Assembly (NCBI GenBank): GCA_944385485.1
Contig: CALWXL010000001.1
Location: 57,072-121,071, forward strand
Source: an uncultured Oscillospiraceae bacterium
GTDB lineage: Bacteria > Bacillota > Clostridia > Oscillospirales > Oscillospiraceae
Reading direction: 5' to 3'
DNA: 64,000 nt
Under the pieces are notes generated by a model that saw nothing but the letters and a program-made list of their open reading frames with translations, was not told the origin of the DNA and did no database searches. Shown here in pieces: positions 10,341 to 63,911 of the stretch. Position 1 is the stretch's first letter. Each line of letters begins with the position of its first letter. Both the position numbers and the translations under genes were made by a program.

Positions 10341-12815
10341 TTAGTCCTGGGGGTTGAGATCCCCATAGACGGAAACGCCTCGGTTTGCTTTATCGGTCTG
10401 GGCCTGGCGCACCATGTGGGCCACCAGTTCCCGCATCGCCTTGGTGTTTTGGGTTTGCAGCGTCAGGTGATAGCGGTATCGGTTGTTCACCTTGACTACC
10501 CCATCCGGAGCGGGGCCCAATAGGCGACATGCCGTTGCGCCATAGCTTCCCCGGGATAGGATTTGGTCCAGAGCCTGGCGCAGGCGGGCACACACCCGCA
10601 GCACCTCCTCTTCCACCTCTCCGGTGATGTGGAGCACAAAGAAGTCTCCAAAGGGCGGATAGTCCCGCAGCTGACGCATTCGGATTTCCTGGGCATAAAA
10701 GCCATCATAGTCCTGACGGGCAGCACACTCGATGACCTCGTTGCCGGGCGTAAAGGTCTGGATGATCGCTCGCCCCGCCTTGCCGCCACGGCCTGCCCGG
10801 CCCACCACCTGGGTGAGCAGAGAAAAAGTACGCTCTCCGCCTCGATAGTCCTCCACATACAGCGTCTGATCGGCAGCCACAGCCCCCACCAGAGTCACAT
10901 TTTCAAAATCCAAGCCTTTGGCCACCATCTGGGTGCCCACCAACACGGGAATCTTCTCGGTTCGGAATCGGGCCAACAGTTTGGCATGGCCCTGAACCCC
11001 CGACACCGTGTCCGTATCCATCCGCAACACCGGCATATCGGGGAATAGGCGGTGCAGTTCCTCCTCCACCTTTTGGGTTCCAACTCCCTGGAAACTGAAC
11101 ATTCCGCCGCATTGCGGGCAGGTAGGCGGCAGAGGCTGGGAATAGCCGCAGTAGTGGCACATCAGGCGTCCGTTGGCCTTATGATAGGTCAGGTGTACAG
11201 AACACCTGGGACAAGTGGGGGATGCTCCGCACTCTCCGCATACCACCATGTTGCTGCTTCCCCGGCGGTTGACAAAGAGAATCGCCTGCTCTCCCCGGTC
11301 CACAGTCTCACGCAGCGCCTGTTCCAGGGGGGCACTGATGATGACGCTGTGCCCCTCTCTCAGTTCCTGACGCATATCCACCACAGTCACCTGCGGCAGC
11401 TCCCGCTCATTGAATCGGTGGTTAATCTGAAAGAAATGGTACGGTCCTTCTAAAGCGTGATACATAGTTTCCACCGATGGAGTGGCAGAGCCCAGCAGCA
11501 ACAAGGCCCCTTCCTTTCCGCACCGGAACTTAGCCACATCTCGGGCATGGTAGCGAGGGTTTTGTTCGGACTGGTAGGTGGGTTCCTGCTCCTCATCCAG
11601 AACAATGAGCCCCAGATGTCTCACGGGGGCAAACACCGCCGACCGGGTGCCCACTACCACCATAGCCTTTCCAGTGCGTACCCGTTTCCACTCATCATAC
11701 CGCTCTCCGGCGGACAATGCACTGTGGAGGCTAGCCACCTGCTGGCCAAACTGTCGGGTAAACAGTTCCATAAGCTGAGGGGTCAGAGAGATTTCCGGGA
11801 CCAGAACCATGGCCCCTCGCCCTTGCTCCAGGCATCGATGAATGAGACGAATGTATACCTGGGTTTTTCCGCTTCCGGTCACACCATACAGCAGAGCAGC
11901 CGCTGGTTTTGCCTCTTCGATCAGTGTCCAGAGCCCTTCCATGGCCCGCTGCTGCTGCTCATTGAGGGTGATGGGCACCGCTGGCTCCTGAGGATCCTCC
12001 ACCAGAACAGGCCGGCGGTACACTTCCTGCTTGCGCAAAGTGAGAATTCCCTGCTTTTCCAGGGAGCGCAGGGTAGACAGAGAGGCTCCGGTGAAATAGC
12101 ACAGCTCCTTGGCAGACACCTCTCCCATTTCGCAGAGCACCTTTACAGCCTCATATTGCAGGGGTGCCCGTCGTCTTCGTCCGGACACCTGGGCTAAAGC
12201 CTCCTCCGGTGGAATGGACAGGGAGGCTCGCTGCTCCAGCTTATCCTTTACGCCAGGGATGCCGTCTGCACAGCGCACAATGCCGCCCGCCTGGGACAAT
12301 TGACGCAGGGCTGGCCAGGGGTCTCTCCCGTCAAACCCTGCTTGAATTTCTCCCAACTCCGCGCTGCCCCCATGGGCACAGAGAATATCTGCCAGGTGAA
12401 TGGCCGCCTTCTGCTCTCCCGCCAGCTGGTAGAGTTGTTCTCGATCCACACCGGGAGCTACCTTCCAGCTCTCCTTCAGTGAATACCAAAGTCCGGCAGG
12501 GAGCATGACACGAATGGCCTCATAGACGGTACAGAAATAGCGTTCCCGCATCCATAGCGCCAGCTGAATGTTCTCCTGGGTGAGAATTGGCTCCTGATCC
12601 AGTACGGACTGGATGGGCTTTAGTCCCGTCGTGTCCACTGTCTCGCCCAGTGCCAGCACAATGCCGTCACTGAGACGATTGCCCCGACCGAAGGGAACTG
12701 CCACTCGCATGCCTGGCTGGACTCGCTGCTCCATGTGGCTGGGAATGGAATAATCAAAGGGTCTGTCAATGGCATAGACGGCGGCCGCCACCGCTATTTT
12801 CGCACTTTTGGGCAC
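10341..12815 (-). CDS. priA: Primosomal replication-restart helicase PriA
   Basis: PriA recognises stalled forks and reloads the replisome. It has 824 residues: an N-terminal 3'-end binding domain, a helicase core with Walker A GVTGSGKTQVY and Walker B LIVLDEEQ, and a two-zinc insertion made of paired CxxC motifs (CGECG, CPRC, CHYCG, CPQCGG). Motifs V-VI follow (GTQMVAKGLDF; QVVGRAGRG). The Walker B motif ends in Gln where DEEH is usual. The start is a GTG at 12815, 7 nt after GGAGGAGG. Confidence 0.95.
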   Translation of the reverse strand: MPKSAKIAVAAAVYAIDRPFDYSIPSHMEQRVQPGMRVAVPFGRGNRLSDGIVLALGETVDTTGLKPIQSVLDQEPILTQENIQLALWMRERYFCTVYEAIRVMLPAGLWYSLKESWKVAPGVDREQLYQLAGEQKAAIHLADILCAHGGSAELGEIQAGFDGRDPWPALRQLSQAGGIVRCADGIPGVKDKLEQRASLSIPPEEALAQVSGRRRRAPLQYEAVKVLCEMGEVSAKELCYFTGASLSTLRSLEKQGILTLRKQEVYRRPVLVEDPQEPAVPITLNEQQQRAMEGLWTLIEEAKPAAALLYGVTGSGKTQVYIRLIHRCLEQGRGAMVLVPEISLTPQLMELFTRQFGQQVASLHSALSAGERYDEWKRVRTGKAMVVVGTRSAVFAPVRHLGLIVLDEEQEPTYQSEQNPRYHARDVAKFRCGKEGALLLLGSATPSVETMYHALEGPYHFFQINHRFNERELPQVTVVDMRQELREGHSVIISAPLEQALRETVDRGEQAILFVNRRGSSNMVVCGECGASPTCPRCSVHLTYHKANGRLMCHYCGYSQPLPPTCPQCGGMFSFQGVGTQKVEEELHRLFPDMPVLRMDTDTVSGVQGHAKLLARFRTEKIPVLVGTQMVAKGLDFENVTLVGAVAADQTLYVEDYRGGERTFSLLTQVVGRAGRGGKAGRAIIQTFTPGNEVIECAARQDYDGFYAQEIRMRQLRDYPPFGDFFVLHITGEVEEEVLRVCARLRQALDQILSRGSYGATACRLLGPAPDGVVKVNNRYRYHLTLQTQNTKAMRELVAHMVRQAQTDKANRGVSVYGDLNPQD

Positions 12816-12844
12816 ACCGCCACCTCCTCCTTTTGACCACGAAA

Positions 12845-12901
12845 GGGCAAGCAGCGTACACTGCTTGCCCTGTATCTACGGAAAGGGAGCCTCCCTTTCC
12901 C
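12845..12901 (-). terminator. Two adjacent stem-loops between rpoZ and priA
   Basis: Two inverted repeats lie in the 95-nt gap: GGAAAGGGAG / CTCCCTTTCC and GGGCAAGCAG / CTGCTTGCCC. The second is followed by only a short T run (CCCTTTCG). They look like a weak terminator or an mRNA-stabilising intercistronic structure, not a strong stop. Confidence 0.45.
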
Positions 12902-12910
12902 GCAGAACTG

Positions 12911-13123
12911 TTACTCCTCGACGGTCTCTTCAGGCTCCTCCACCTTCAGCTCACCGCTAGCCACTTCACGCACGGCCAGAGTCACAGCCTTCTCAGTCAG
13001 GGGAATCCCGGTCTTTTCCGACTCACTGGAAATCTCCCGGGCACGGTGTGCCACCACATTCACCAGCATGTAACGGCTGGGCACATTCTCCAGCAGGTCC
13101 TTCATAGGGGGATAGAGCAACAT
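12911..13123 (-). CDS. rpoZ: DNA-directed RNA polymerase omega subunit
   Basis: A 70-residue protein of normal length. The family core PSRYMLVNVVAHRAREI sits at about residues 15-31, followed by the KAVTLAVREVASG helix. Omega helps fold and assemble the beta' subunit. Its place between gmk and priA is the standard Firmicutes order. The C-terminal tail is acidic (EEPEETVEE). Confidence 0.93.
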   Translation of the reverse strand: MLLYPPMKDLLENVPSRYMLVNVVAHRAREISSESEKTGIPLTEKAVTLAVREVASGELKVEEPEETVEE

Positions 13124-13151
13124 AATCTTTCAATCCTTTCCGTTTCTTCCT

Positions 13152-13772
13152 TTAGTCTTGGGTGCCAATGATGCTATCGGCCAAATGGATCCGCTTTTTC
13201 ACGCGACAACGTTCCGCCTCCAAAATGGCCAGAATCTCCTGGGCGGCGGACATCACGTTGTCGTTGACCACCAAGTAGTCATACTTGACGCTCTCCCGGC
13301 ACTCCGCCCGGGATTTCTCCAGCCGCTGGGCAATCACGTCCACGCTATCCGTATTTCGGTTGCGCAGCCGACGGGAGAGTTCCTCCAGGGAAGGGGGAAT
13401 GATAAAGATGAGAACCGCCTCCGGGCACTTCTCCCGTACTTTGGCCGCGCCCTGCACCTCGATGTCCAACAGGACGTCGGTGCCCTGCTGTAAGTAGTCC
13501 TCAATCACCTTCAAGGATGTCCCATAGTAGTTGCCTACATACTCGGCATACTCCAGCAATTCTCCGTCGCGGATCATCCGCTCAAACTCTTCTCGGGTGA
13601 CAAAGTTATAGTTGACCCCGTCTTCCTCTCCTACCCGAGGCGCTCGGGTGGTAAAGGACACAGAGAAGTGGATGTCACGCCGACTGCTGAGCAACTCCGC
13701 AATCACCGTGCTTTTCCCCACTCCAGAGGGGCCGGAGAGTACAATCAGTTCTCCTCTTCGCTTCTTTATCAT
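13152..13772 (-). CDS. gmk: Guanylate kinase
   Basis: Gmk phosphorylates GMP to GDP. The 206-residue form starts [17 protein letters not shown] and carries the P-loop GPSGVGKST. The GMP-binding segments [19 protein letters not shown] and GNYYGT follow, then the [10 protein letters not shown] stretch. The ATG at 13772 overlaps the remA stop as ATGA. The ORF extends further upstream only by running into remA. Confidence 0.96.
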
Positions 13773-14041
13773 ACCTCTTCCTCTCCCATCTGCTCGTCTT
13801 CCTGTGGCTGTGCGGTTCCTCGTTGTTGGATTACCTCCGGCAACAGAGAGGACCACACCACATGGCCACTGTCCATAATCAGCACTGACTTGGTCTTCCG
13901 TCCAAAGCTGGCATCGATCAGCATGCCTCGCTCCCGTGCCTCCTGCCCCAGCCGTTTAATGGGGGCTGATTCGGGGCTGACCACAGCGATAATTCTGCGG
14001 GCTGACACCACATTGCCAAATCCAATGTTGATGAGTTCCAT
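13769..14041 (-). CDS. remA: RemA-like DNA-binding regulatory protein (DUF370)
   Basis: A 90-residue DUF370 protein ([23 protein letters not shown] at the start, then [18 protein letters not shown]). In Bacillus RemA is a ring-forming DNA-binding activator of matrix and osmoprotection genes. The first 75 residues fit the family. The C-terminal 15 residues form an acidic, Gln-rich tail. yicC-remA-gmk-rpoZ is a conserved cluster. Confidence 0.92.
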
Positions 14042-14059
14042 CTTCTCACCTCGCCCACA

Positions 14060-14947
14060 TCATTCCAAATTCTGTACCTGCTCTCGAATCTTCTCGATCT
14101 CCGCTTTGATGTCCACCACCACGCGGGCAATCTCGATATCGTTGCACTTGGAACCAATGGTATTGGCCTCACGGTTAAATTCCTGGATGAGAAAATCCAG
14201 CTTGCGGCCCACAGCGCCGCCCTGCTCCAGCATCTCCCGAAGCTGTACCATATGGCTGCGCAGGCGCACCGTCTCTTCATCCACCGCTACCTTATCAGCA
14301 AAAATGGCAGCTTCGGTGAGAATCCGGCTCTCCTCAATCTGGGTGTTTTGGAGGATCTCCGCCATCTTGGCCTCCAAGCGAGCCCGGTACTCCGCCACGG
14401 TCTGAGGAGAACGCTCCTCCACCTTGGCAACCAGGCGCTCTATGGTATTCACGCGTCCCAGAATATCCTGAGCCAGACGCTGTCCCTCCCGAACACGCAT
14501 GGAATCAAAGTCGGCCAACGCCGCATCCAAAGCACCCAGCAGTCCCGCCTTCACCTGATCCTGGTCCTGCTCCTTTTTCTCCACGGTGAGGATATCGGGG
14601 AAACGAGCCAGGTCCGTGGCGTAATAGCTGCCCTTCACCCACTGGCCTTTTCCCAAGTCATAAAGCTTGGCCAGAGCCAGAATGTAGGATTTCGCCAGGC
14701 CCTCATTGACCGTGACGGTGGAGTCATCCTCCGCCTGGGAGGTCTGGGTAACGAACACATCCACCTTACCCCGGGAAATGGAGGCCTGTACCAGTGCCTT
14801 CATGGCATCCTCTGCAAAAATATAGGCACGAGGCATCTTAATGCCACAGTCCAGATATCGATTGTTTACCGACCGCACTTCGATGGTAAAGGTGCCGCCC
14901 TCATAGCTGCACTCTCCTCTGCCATACCCGGTCATGCTTTTCACCAT
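14060..14947 (-). CDS. yicC: YicC-family endoribonuclease
   Basis: A 295-residue YicC/YloC protein beginning MVKSMTGYGRGE, the family signature. The conserved C-terminal DUF1732 part holds QLREMLEQGGAVGRKLDFL and EFNREANTIGSK. YicC is an RNase linked to RNA turnover. It precedes remA by 18 nt in the conserved order. Confidence 0.94.
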   Translation of the reverse strand: MVKSMTGYGRGECSYEGGTFTIEVRSVNNRYLDCGIKMPRAYIFAEDAMKALVQASISRGKVDVFVTQTSQAEDDSTVTVNEGLAKSYILALAKLYDLGKGQWVKGSYYATDLARFPDILTVEKKEQDQDQVKAGLLGALDAALADFDSMRVREGQRLAQDILGRVNTIERLVAKVEERSPQTVAEYRARLEAKMAEILQNTQIEESRILTEAAIFADKVAVDEETVRLRSHMVQLREMLEQGGAVGRKLDFLIQEFNREANTIGSKCNDIEIARVVVDIKAEIEKIREQVQNLE

Positions 14948-60164: not shown

Positions 60165-60665
60165 ATGAGTAAAAAAGTTGCAGTGATCATGGGCTCTGAC
60201 TCCGATTGGCCCGTGGTGAAGGCCGCCTGTCAGCAGCTGGCCCAGTATGGAATTCCCTACGAGGCCCACATCATGAGCGCCCACCGCACTCCGGTGCAGG
60301 CCGCCGAATTTGCCCGCTCTGCCCGTAAAAATGGCTTTGGCGTGATCATCTGTGCCGCCGGCATGGCCGCACACCTGGCCGGCGCCTTTGCCGGAAACTC
60401 CACCCTCCCCGTCATCGGCATCCCCCTGAAGGGCGGCGCCATGGACGGCCTGGACGCCCTGCTGGCCACCGTCCAGATGCCCAGCGGCATTCCTGTGGCC
60501 ACGGTAGCTCTCAACGGTGCCAAGAACGCTGCCGTCCTGGCCGCTCAGATCTTGGCCGTGTCTGACGACGAACTGGCTTCCCGCCTGGATGGCGACCGTG
60601 AGATCATGGCAGCCCAAATCGCCGCCAAGGAAGACAAGCTCCAGCAGGAGCTGACCCAACTGTAA
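60165..60665 (+). CDS. purE: N5-carboxyaminoimidazole ribonucleotide mutase
   Basis: Class I PurE. 166 residues with GSDSDWP near 10, MSAHRTP near 38, [10 protein letters not shown] near 68 and a helical C-terminus. Class I enzymes normally need PurK, which is not in view. The ATG at 60165 follows AAAGGAG; the frame's longer start would lie in the attenuator. Confidence 0.96.
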
Positions 60666-60702: not shown

Positions 60703-61413
60703 ATGAACAAACTGGAGCAGCTGTACGAAGGAAAAGCCAAGAAGGTATTTGCCACCGAGGACCCCAACGTGGTCATCGTCTCTTACAAGGATGACGCCAC
60801 CGCTTTTGACGGTGCCAAGAAGGGCACCATCCTGGGCAAGGGTGCCATCAACAACCAGATGAGCAATTTCCTCATGTCCCAGCTGGAGAAGGCCGGTGTT
60901 CCCACCCACCTGGTGGAAGAGCTCAACGAGCGTGAGACCGCTGTGAAGAAGGTGTCCATCGTCCCCCTGGAGGTCATCATCCGCAACATCTCCGCCGGTT
61001 CCTTTGCCAAGCGCTACGGCGTGGAAGAGGGCATTGTGTTCGACCAGCCCACCATCGAGTTCTCCTACAAGAACGATGATCTCCATGACCCCCTCATCAA
61101 CGATTACCACGCTGTGGCTCTGAAGCTGGCCACCTGGGAGGAGATCGAGCAGATCAAGACCTATGCCTTCGCTGTCAACGAGTTCTTGAAGAAGACTCTG
61201 GCCGAGTGCGGCGTGACCCTGGTGGACTTCAAGCTGGAGTTCGGCAAGACCTCCGACGGCACCATCGTCCTGGCCGACGAGATCAGCCCCGACACCTGCC
61301 GTTTCTGGGACTCCAAGACCGGCGAGAAGCTGGACAAGGACCGTTTCCGTCGTGACCTGGGCAACGTGGAGGGCGCTTATCAGGAGATGAGCCGCCGTCT
61401 GATGGGCAAGTAA
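60703..61413 (+). CDS. purC: SAICAR synthetase
   Basis: Joins CAIR and aspartate. 236 residues, the short bacterial form, with [38 protein letters not shown], and [22 protein letters not shown] lies before the ATG. Confidence 0.97.
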
Positions 61414-61431
61414 TTTACTAGGAGGAACAGC

Positions 61432-62856
61432 ATGGGAGGCTTTTTTGGCGCCGTCTCCAAGCGAGACGTCACTCTTGATATCTTTTTCGGCGTGGACTAC
61501 CACTCTCATCTGGGTACCCGTCGGGGCGGCATGATCATTCATGACGCCACCGACGGCTTCCAGCGTCAGATCCACTCCATTGAAAACACCCCCTTCCGCA
61601 CCAAGTTCGAGAAGGATCTCCAAGACTTTCACGGCTGCAGCGGCATCGGCTGCATCAGCGACACCGACCCCCAGCCTCTGCTGGTTCGCTCTCACCTGGG
61701 TCTGTACGCCATCACCACCGTGGGTGTCATCACCAACACCGACCAGCTGGTGGCTGAGCACTTCTCCACCCCCGGTCACCAGTTCATGGCCATGAGCTCC
61801 GGCAAGGTCAACTCCACCGAGCTCACCGCCGCCCTCATCAACCAGAAAACCAACCTCATCGACGGCATCCGTCACGCGCAGGAGCAAATTGAAGGGTCCA
61901 TGACCCTGCTGATCCTCACCGAGCGAGGCGAGATCATCGCCGCTCGTGACCGCCTGGGCCGTCTGCCGGTACTTATCGGCAAGGGTCCCGAGGGCCACTG
62001 CGTGTCCTTCGAGTCCTTCGCCTACCACAAGCTGGGCTACGAGGACGCCTACGAGCTGGGCCCCCGGGAAATCGTTCAGGTCACCGCCGATGGCTTCCAG
62101 ACCCTGGTGCCCGCCGGTGATGATATGAAGATCTGCGCCTTCCTGTGGACCTACTACGGCTACCCCAACTCCAATTACGAGGGGGTCAACGTGGAGGTCA
62201 TGCGCTACCGCAACGGTGAGATTATGGCCCGGGACGAAAAGGCCCGAGGCGTCATGCCTGATGTGGACTTTGTGGCCGGTGTGCCCGACTCCGGCGTGCC
62301 CCACGCCATCGGCTACGCCAACAAAAGCGGCAAGCAGTTTGCCCGTCCCTTCGTGAAATACACTCCCACCTGGCCCCGCTCCTTCATGCCCGCCAACCAG
62401 GAGGTGCGCAACCAGGTGGCCAAGATGAAGCAGATCCCTGTGCCCGAGCTCATCCAGGACAAGAAGCTTCTGTTCGTGGATGACTCCATCGTCCGTGGCA
62501 CCCAGCTGCGGGAGACCGTCGACTTCCTCTACGAGTCCGGAGCCAAGGAAGTGCACATGCGCTCTGCCTGCCCCCCCATCATGTACAGCTGCAAGTATCT
62601 GAACTTCTCCCGAGGCAACTCCGACATGGACCTGCTGGCCCGCCGCACCATCCAGGAGCTGGAGGGCGACGAAGGCCAGAAGCATCTGGAGGAGTACGCC
62701 GACGCCAACACAGAGCGTGGCCAGTGCATGCTCAAGGCCATCTGTGAGAAGATGGGCTTTGACTCCCTGGGCTATCAGTCCTTGGATGGCCTGCTGGAGT
62801 CCATTGGTCTGGATCGTGACAAGGTGTGCACCTACTGCTGGAACGGAAAGGAGTAA
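61432..62856 (+). CDS. purF: Amidophosphoribosyltransferase homologue lacking the glutaminase cysteine
   Basis: PurF makes phosphoribosylamine from PRPP. 474 residues. The phosphoribosyltransferase half is intact (PRPP loop [12 protein letters not shown], about 346-357), and the Fe-S cysteines of Bacillus PurF have counterparts (Cys235, Cys387, Cys466, Cys469). The N-terminal glutaminase-type domain is altered: the protein starts MGGFFGAV where active enzymes have Met-Cys-Gly, so the nucleophile is Gly. The region equivalent to RGQEGAGI reads RRGGMIIHD, and the NGNL loop is not evident. AGGAGG lies 6 nt before the ATG, so the start is firm. It may use free ammonia or a partner glutaminase. 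Confidence 0.9.
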
Positions 62857-62861
62857 TCTTC

Positions 62862-63911
62862 ATGAATCATTCTGACTCTCACTCTGCTTCCTACGCCGCC
62901 GCTGGCGTGGACGTCACCGCCGGTTATGAGGCGGTACGCCGCATCAAGCCCATGGTGGAATCCACCTACATCCCCGGGGTCATGGGTACCCTGGGTGGCT
63001 TTGGCGGCATGTTTGCCCCCGACATGAGCGGCATGAAGAAGCCCGTGCTAGTGTCCGGCACCGACGGCGTGGGCACCAAGCTGAAGCTGGCCTTTTTGAT
63101 GAACAAGCACGACACCGTGGGTATTGACTGCGTAGCCATGTGCGTCAACGACATCATCTGCGGCGGCGCCATGCCTCTGTTCTTCCTGGACTACATCGCC
63201 TGCGGCAAGAACGACCCCGCCCGCATCGCTGACATCGTCACTGGCATCACCGAGGGCTGCCGTCAGGCTGGCTGCGCCCTGGTGGGCGGCGAGACCGCCG
63301 AGATGCCCGGCTTCTACCCCGTGGACGAGTACGACCTGGCTGGGTTCTCCGTTGGTATGGTGGACGAGGAGAAGATCATCGACGGCAAGGCCCTCACCGA
63401 GGGTGACGTGCTCATCGGTCTGGCCTCCTCCGGCGTGCACTCCAACGGCTTCTCCCTGGTGCGTAAGGTCTTTGACGTGGAGCACGCCGACCTCACCACC
63501 CCCATGGATGAGCTGAACGGCAAGAGCCTGGGCGAGGCCTTGCTGGAGCCCACCCGCATCTATGTCAAGGCCGTGAAGGCCGTTCTGGGTGCTGGCGTAG
63601 ATGTCCATGCGGTTAGCCACATCACCGGCGGCGGCTTCTATGAGAATGTGCCCCGCATGATGGTGGACGGTCTCACCGCCCAGATCAAGCTGGACTCCTT
63701 CCCCACCCTGCCCATCTTCTCCCTCATCCAGAAGGCGGGCAACATTCCCTCTCGGGACATGTACAACACCTTTAACATGGGCATCGGCATGATTCTGGCT
63801 GTCCCCGCCGCTCAGGCCCAGGCCGCTTTGGACGCCCTGGCCGCAGCTGGCGAGACCGCCTACCAGATCGGCAGCGTGGTCGCTGGCGAGGCTGGCGTGG
63901 AGCTGGTGTAA
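62862..63911 (+). CDS. purM: Phosphoribosylformylglycinamidine cyclo-ligase (AIR synthetase)
   Basis: 349 residues: [19 protein letters not shown] start, [19 protein letters not shown] (ATP site), [31 protein letters not shown], and [14 protein letters not shown]. The ATG at 62862 follows AAAGGAG inside the purF end. Confidence 0.97.

Follow-up and report, generated by a model that had tools for sequence, protein, structure and literature searches.

As generally taught, purine synthesis depends on glutamine in its first committed step: in PurF, glutamine is hydrolysed in the N-domain, and the ammonia is handed over for the amination of PRPP. The asparagine synthetases AsnA and AsnB offer a case of ammonia and glutamine use similar to that of the NAD synthetases considered below. 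In the gut, free ammonia is plentiful.

Several described systems come close to the gene reported here. In E. coli PurF, replacing the catalytic Cys with Ala or Ser abolishes the use of glutamine and leaves that of external ammonia (Mei and Zalkin 1989, as given in the excerpted text of PMC3261824); for the yeast enzyme, use of ambient NH3 is described in PMC12017579. The excerpts of PMC3261824 also describe Mlab_0150 of Methanocorpusculum labreanum, a PurF paralogue that has Ser in place of the Cys, occurs beside a normal PurF and is a recent duplicate of the archaeon's own PurF. In the NAD synthetases, as described in PMC3376133, ammonia-using and glutamine-using forms swap between lineages, the ammonia-using enzyme being single-domain, with the glutaminase domain absent.

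Here we describe a PurF homologue, hereafter P, which lacks the same residue as the E. coli mutants, and for which ammonia use is to be expected; compared with those mutants, the state of P is natural, ancient and fixed, the rest of the glutamine site has been rebuilt too, and P is known from sequence. Like Mlab_0150, P can be found without Cys beside a normal PurF, but it forms a separate deep subfamily, often lies in the purine operon and sometimes occurs alone. The swapping of forms between lineages recalls the NAD synthetases, although P keeps a dead glutaminase domain. We consider it probable (roughly 70%) that P is a phosphoribosylamine (PRA) synthase with a dead glutaminase half, which takes its nitrogen from ammonia in solution and is the sole first-step enzyme in some lineages.

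A PurF homologue without the catalytic cysteine in a purine operon

The window, that is, the whole stretch of 64,000 nucleotides analysed, comes from an uncultured Oscillospiraceae bacterium and carries P as an open reading frame of 474 aa on the plus strand (61432..62856). The frame opens with ATG GGA GGC (Met-Gly-Gly), giving the N-terminus MGGFFG, and the Gly2 codon GGA (61435..61437, plus strand) takes the position of the catalytic Cys. Specifically, Gly2 occupies the canonical Cys place in an ungapped register; MAFFT puts a gap there. A ribosome-binding site, AGGAGG (61420..61425, plus strand), lies six bases 5' of the ATG. From stop to stop the frame measures 480 aa, with six codons 5' of the ATG and no Cys among them, and this Cys-free upstream frame rules out a hidden Cys-bearing propeptide in the window's P.

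P is composed of an N-terminal domain of class II glutaminase fold (residues 1 to about 230), from which the glutamine site is gone, and a phosphoribosyltransferase (PRT) domain (residues about 231-474). Against TIGR01134, the PurF model, it scores 175 bits, which is below the curated cut-off of 350.

The genes flanking P were located as tblastn matches and named from NCBIfam. All lie on the plus strand: purE (60165..60665; 58% to the purE named by TIGR01162, with the ATG at 60165 chosen within an ORF from GTG 60117), purC (60703..61413; 82% to the purC named by TIGR00081) and purM (62862..63911; 78% to the purM named by TIGR00878, with the ATG at 62862 chosen within an ORF from GTG 62826). 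The gene order is purE-purC-P-purM, and both the window and the contig stop after purM. In a relative, Candidatus Enterenecus avicola (locus L025), in which P is 97% identical, the operon continues with purN, IMP cyclohydrolase, AICAR formyltransferase and purD. An earlier note on this DNA had described MGG in place of MCG at a firmly placed start, inside a purine operon; the ribosome-binding site and the Cys-free upstream frame bear out the former point, and the flanking purE, purC and purM the latter.

Loss of the glutaminase site across the P subfamily

The 213 sequences extracted comprise 180 distinct ones, 134 of P and 46 of canonical PurF. Residue 2 of P is Gly in 129 of the 134 distinct sequences and Ser in 5, and a Cys within residues 1-4 is found in 0/134. 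The glutaminase positions Arg26, Arg73, Asn101, Gly102 and Asp127 are given in E. coli PurF numbering. At these positions, all 134 P sequences show Leu for Arg26, a gap in the Arg73 segment and Val, Ile or Thr for Asn101; Asp127 is Asp in 1/134, and Gly102 is retained in 133/134. The 46 distinct canonical sequences have the Cys in 45 cases, Arg26 in 46, Arg73 in 45, Asn101 in 46 and Asp127 in 46. All 134 P sequences have the PRPP loop, and 133 have the four Fe-S cysteines found in PurF of the B. subtilis type; the exception, L045, is truncated where its contig ends. Where canonical PurF reads K-N-[RK]-Y-[IV]-x-R-T-F, moreover, the PRT half of P carries an inserted, changed stretch (10 protein letters, not shown); one might speculate that this change alters feedback control.

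A sequencing error behind the Cys loss is ruled out, the Cys being absent from all 134 distinct P sequences, and a decaying pseudogene is ruled out by the 53-97% identity together with the conserved N-domain. The class is also cleanly separated: in 299 genomes of the phylum, P scores at least 779 bits and all other matches at most 237. These alignments indicate that P is a distinct deep subfamily in which the loss of the Cys and of the glutamine site is fixed. P is homologous to PurF and stands in the PurF place, yet judged by its residues it does not pass the defining tests of a glutamine amidotransferase. In open-licence PubMed Central we found no title or abstract describing a Cys-less PurF subfamily.

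The changed glutaminase residues and the retained PRPP loop and Fe-S cysteines, which the earlier note had read from the single gene, hold for the subfamily, and the alignment of homologues that it had proposed, as a way to see whether the loss is fixed in a clade, returned no N-terminal Cys in any of the 134.

The one Cys-less sequence among the 46 canonical ones is a second copy of canonical type in Frisingicoccus caecimuris (L239:4091-5416), with the N-terminus MSRSGLFAM and Ser replacing the Cys. This copy sits in purE-[copy]-purM-purN-purD, in a genome that also encodes a normal PurF and a P at other sites, and is possibly a second, independent loss of the glutaminase. Four late-starting canonical-like matches (G046, G134, G055 and G115) were considered as further Cys-less forms and rejected, as their N-termini read HEECG or QEECG.

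Fold and conservation of the dead domain

An AlphaFold2 model (pLDDT 91.7, pTM 0.89) predicts the whole PurF fold for P, and when this model was used as a Foldseek query, ranks 1-17 were all PurF chains, with TM values of 0.80-0.83 to the predicted structure. Compared with PurF of the B. subtilis type (1AO0, 1GPH; TIGR01134), P is alike in its modelled two-domain fold (TM 0.81-0.82), its PRPP loop, its four Fe-S cysteines and its place in the operon; it differs in having neither the Cys nucleophile nor the glutamine site and in its catalytic-loop region, with 27% identity to 1AO0.

The conservation of the two domains was compared in genomes that carry both forms, using 20 of the 24 matched pairs; G066, G104, G060 and G022 were left out because one row of each was identical to another locus. 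Over 190 genome pairs from these 20 genomes, P averages 65.6% identity over the N-domain and 72.9% over the PRT domain, against 59.4% and 63.6% for canonical PurF over the same pairs; the N/PRT ratio is thus 0.90 for P and 0.93 for canonical PurF. Furthermore, of 56 columns whose residues P keeps near-invariant but which are rare in canonical PurF, the N-domain has 21 and the PRT half 35. The conservation of the N-domain, together with near-invariant columns of its own, argues that the dead glutaminase domain has some function, and by this measure the domain appears to be under conservation and not in decay.

P beside canonical PurF and in its place

In the window's genome, P is a second copy beside a canonical PurF, which lies on another contig (C45), scores 515.8 bits to TIGR01134 and starts MSIHEECGLFG. 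Both forms are also present in the genus genomes G066 and G145.

The family was surveyed over 150 genomes, canonical PurF being called by TIGR01134 over its cut-off, P by a profile of 16 P sequences and purD by TIGR00877. Good genomes, at least 90% complete and with at most 5% contamination, numbered 96. Canonical PurF, P and purD occur together in 30 of these; 33 have canonical PurF and purD without P, 17 have P and purD with canonical PurF absent (P-only), 15 have none of the three, and 1 has canonical PurF but no purD. At least one PurF form is thus present in every good genome with purD (80/80), and purD in every good genome with P (47/47). Across all 150 genomes, incomplete ones included, there are 5 P genomes without purD and 5 purD genomes without either form.

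The 17 P-only genomes were searched again with TIGR01134 to E 0.001: the best match after P reached at most 119 bits, and none passed the cut-off. From their length and profile range, these second-best matches would be GlmS or asparagine-synthase-like proteins. All 17 contain purL. One P-only genome, G078, consists of one contig of 4.3 Mb; it lacks canonical PurF, and its operon reads purE-purC-P-purM-purN-IMP cyclohydrolase-AICAR formyltransferase-purD.

These counts bear on the idea that P is catalytically idle and either regulates or stabilises canonical PurF or senses PRPP or nucleotides. The presence of canonical PurF in the window's genome, in 30 of the 47 good family genomes with P and in all 16 phylum-sample P genomes outside the genus would suit such a role, but we regard it as rather improbable, given the P-only genomes with purD (in the family and in Eggerthellaceae) and with purL (in the family), as well as the PRPP loop in 134/134 P sequences. 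Indeed, the P-only genomes with purD indicate that P is more than a mere helper of a second PurF.

The preferred reading, of P as a PRA synthase, finds a further argument in Salmonella, where, according to the excerpted text of PMC3485032, no PurF-independent route gave enough PRA for purines; on this ground the simplest view is that the P-only genomes with purD and purL use P as their PRA synthase. The same excerpts state that PRA forms non-enzymatically from ribose 5-phosphate and ammonia, which counts against this reading.

The earlier note had suggested a search of the whole genome for a second PurF, and had offered two views of P, as an enzyme supplied with ammonia from outside its own glutaminase or as a regulatory paralogue of a second PurF. 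The search did recover a canonical copy (N-terminus MSIHEECGLFG), and the idea of a second PurF elsewhere is right for the window's genome; it does not extend to the family (17/96 P-only) or to Eggerthellaceae (8/60 P-only), and if P did nothing but regulate another PurF, the P-only genomes with purD would be left unexplained. The genome evidence is in favour of the outside ammonia.

The P-only state on the P tree

Loss by chance through incompleteness predicts 1.7 P-only genomes among the 47, against 17 observed. On a tree built only with P from good family genomes, the P-only state requires 14 changes, at least 9 of which are forced by well-supported branches. Shuffled labels give a mean of 14.4 changes, and 255 of 500 shuffles are as low, so that the P-only state is no more clustered than the shuffled labels are. 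In the sister pairs G132/G044 and G029/G122 (SH-aLRT 99 and 100), both members are P-only.

This scatter fits a repeated loss of the canonical gene, and random assembly gaps would look alike. Both the scatter, which matches that of shuffled labels, and the draft state of most genomes could be taken to mean that P-only genomes are mere assembly gaps and that P is a dispensable duplicate. We find this scarcely credible because of the excess of P-only genomes over the expectation, the single contig of G078, the two P-only sister pairs and the P-only named isolates.

P outside the family

P was found in Clostridia, Coriobacteriia and Bacteroidales. In the phylum sample, 18 of the 299 genomes carry P at 779 bits or more, and canonical PurF is present in all 16 of those outside the window's genus; because these 16 keep it, sole use of P seems to be confined to the window's family and Coriobacteriia.

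Eggerthellaceae, the family of Adlercreutzia and members of another phylum, were sampled with 60 genomes, for which 90% completeness was requested. Matches in the P range (151-186 bits) occur in 42 of the 60, and canonical PurF alone in the other 18. Among the 42, canonical PurF is present in 33, absent altogether in 8 and reduced to its C-terminal half in G512; purD is found in all 9 genomes in which canonical PurF is absent or incomplete and in all 18 with canonical PurF alone. Eleven of the 42 matches were read, and all are P by sequence; the N-terminus, visible in 10 of the 11 (the alignment of G471 runs from residue 8), is MGG or VGG, and P of Adlercreutzia starts VGGFFG. Among the genomes of named records, 5 of 11 are P-only, and purD is present in 9 of the 9 in which it was sought. 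The named P-only isolates are Evtepia gabavorous KLE1738 and, among the Eggerthellaceae, Adlercreutzia equolifaciens DFI.6.87; purD is present in both.

In G512, which has P, the front part of CTP synthase is followed directly by the C-terminal half of canonical purF (L249:2487-4318), the glutaminase halves of both being missing; the junction is either a deletion or an assembly fault.

P of Bacteroides finegoldii and Parabacteroides distasonis has about 49% identity, starts MGGFFG and is directly followed by pepT and gcvT (L261:3001-6904 and L263:3001-6783), and P of Peptoclostridium acidaminophilum has pepT downstream (L262:3001-5800). The records name two of these three P proteins amidophosphoribosyltransferase and one hypothetical protein. 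GcvT is part of glycine cleavage, which yields ammonia and one-carbon units, both of them purine inputs.

Four matches to P were also obtained among 7 plasmid records and one among 8 phage records. Transfer of P by phage or plasmid is not claimed, since these look chromosomal by content (L263 has ribosomal genes and L264 a pur operon). Record MT836108.1, filed as a bacteriophage, is at L264:4961-12919 a bacterial pur operon in which P and canonical purF form a tandem.

A proposed role for P

P is probably active as an enzyme, and free ammonia would be its most likely nitrogen donor. In the mechanism that we propose, the PRT half would aminate PRPP to PRA, and the dead glutaminase half would be kept as a structural or regulatory domain. 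P would perform the first purine step in lineages that have it alone and would work beside glutamine-dependent PurF elsewhere. Where both forms occur, P might serve at high ammonia and canonical PurF at low, a plain guess made by analogy with the ammonia- and glutamine-using NAD synthetases described in PMC3376133. The points that we set against this explanation are the Ser at residue 2 in 5 of the 134 P sequences, the co-occurrence with canonical PurF in 16/16 of the phylum-sample genomes, the unclustered P-only state and, over all 150 family genomes, the 5 with P but no purD and the 5 with purD but neither form. In a bolder version, gut anaerobes from two or more phyla would have exchanged the glutamine-dependent first step for an ammonia-dependent one, with the dead domain rebuilt, near-invariant residues of its own included, as a new sensor or ammonia-handling domain and the canonical enzyme lost repeatedly; this version is tentative, and we lean against it.

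Many gut bacteria carry P, and some appear to depend on it alone. If P uses ammonia, part of the gut flora would be bound to the ammonia supply for its purine synthesis, and glutamine analogues directed against PurF would fail to stop P. Genome-scale metabolic models and auxotrophy predictions would then be wrong wherever P is taken for an ordinary amidophosphoribosyltransferase or a hypothetical protein, or is scored by TIGR01134. P would also be a clear example from nature of an inactive Ntn-glutaminase domain retained under selection.

Gene neighbourhood of P

The neighbourhood survey covered 98 loci, six others having been left out as duplicates or as loci without P. Genes of the pur pathway lie within 2.6 kb of P at 79 of the 98 loci, and purM adjoins P at 75. 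At the 19 loci where P is away from pur genes, the genomes are chiefly Coriobacteriia and Lachnospiraceae-like. Canonical PurF stands in tandem with P, on either side, at 7 of the 98 loci. No partner gene or shared glutaminase was found beside P in the operon maps or among the scanned neighbours of seven non-operon loci.

This last result speaks against a PRA synthase fed through a tunnel by a separate glutaminase protein, as do three of the 17 P-only genomes (G004, G112 and G131), in which P is the sole TIGR01134 match at E 0.001, although the search missed GlmS there too. The strongly conserved N-domain, with its 21 of the 56 P-specific columns, is as a docking surface might be, and the tandem canonical PurF at 7 of 98 loci could serve P in this way; on balance we think such a partner unlikely. 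The same survey touches on the proposal that the PRPP reaction of P is akin to that of PurF but differs from it in nitrogen donor or product. The 19 of 98 loci away from pur genes would accord with it, and so would the 35 P-specific near-invariant columns of the PRT half, including the inserted, changed stretch. In most of the loci, however, P occupies the position of purF in the operon, and in P-only genomes it stands in for PurF; we judge a different reaction quite improbable. An ammonia-using PRA synthase remains the reading that we prefer.

ZTP riboswitches sense purine and folate shortage. One was found within the P operon at 8 of the 24 loci scanned (L009:6145-6227, L010:9250-9333 on the minus strand, L025:11150-11228, L047:6601-6683, L049:6650-6735, L051:7337-7421, L074:7329-7428 and L090:7310-7390), and 7 of these lie immediately 5' of purE. 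The riboswitch of L025, close kin of the window, is placed between purN and the IMP cyclohydrolase gene. In the window's own stretch the scan found none.

Other features of individual loci were recorded. The purC adjoining P comes in two very different forms, which share about 80% and about 33% identity, respectively, with purC of L005 and are mixed among the loci (L007, L009, L013, L023 and others). At L005, IMP cyclohydrolase and AICAR formyltransferase are separate genes (12560-13264 and 13287-14456), and this IMP cyclohydrolase is a weak match to archaeal PurO (58.8 bits, cut-off 150). An EamA-family transporter follows P at both Coriobacteriia loci L058 and L053. Finally, in a single case, in Frisingicoccus, a choloylglycine hydrolase gene, of another Ntn amidase family, lies directly downstream of P on the opposite strand (L040:9482-10456, minus strand).
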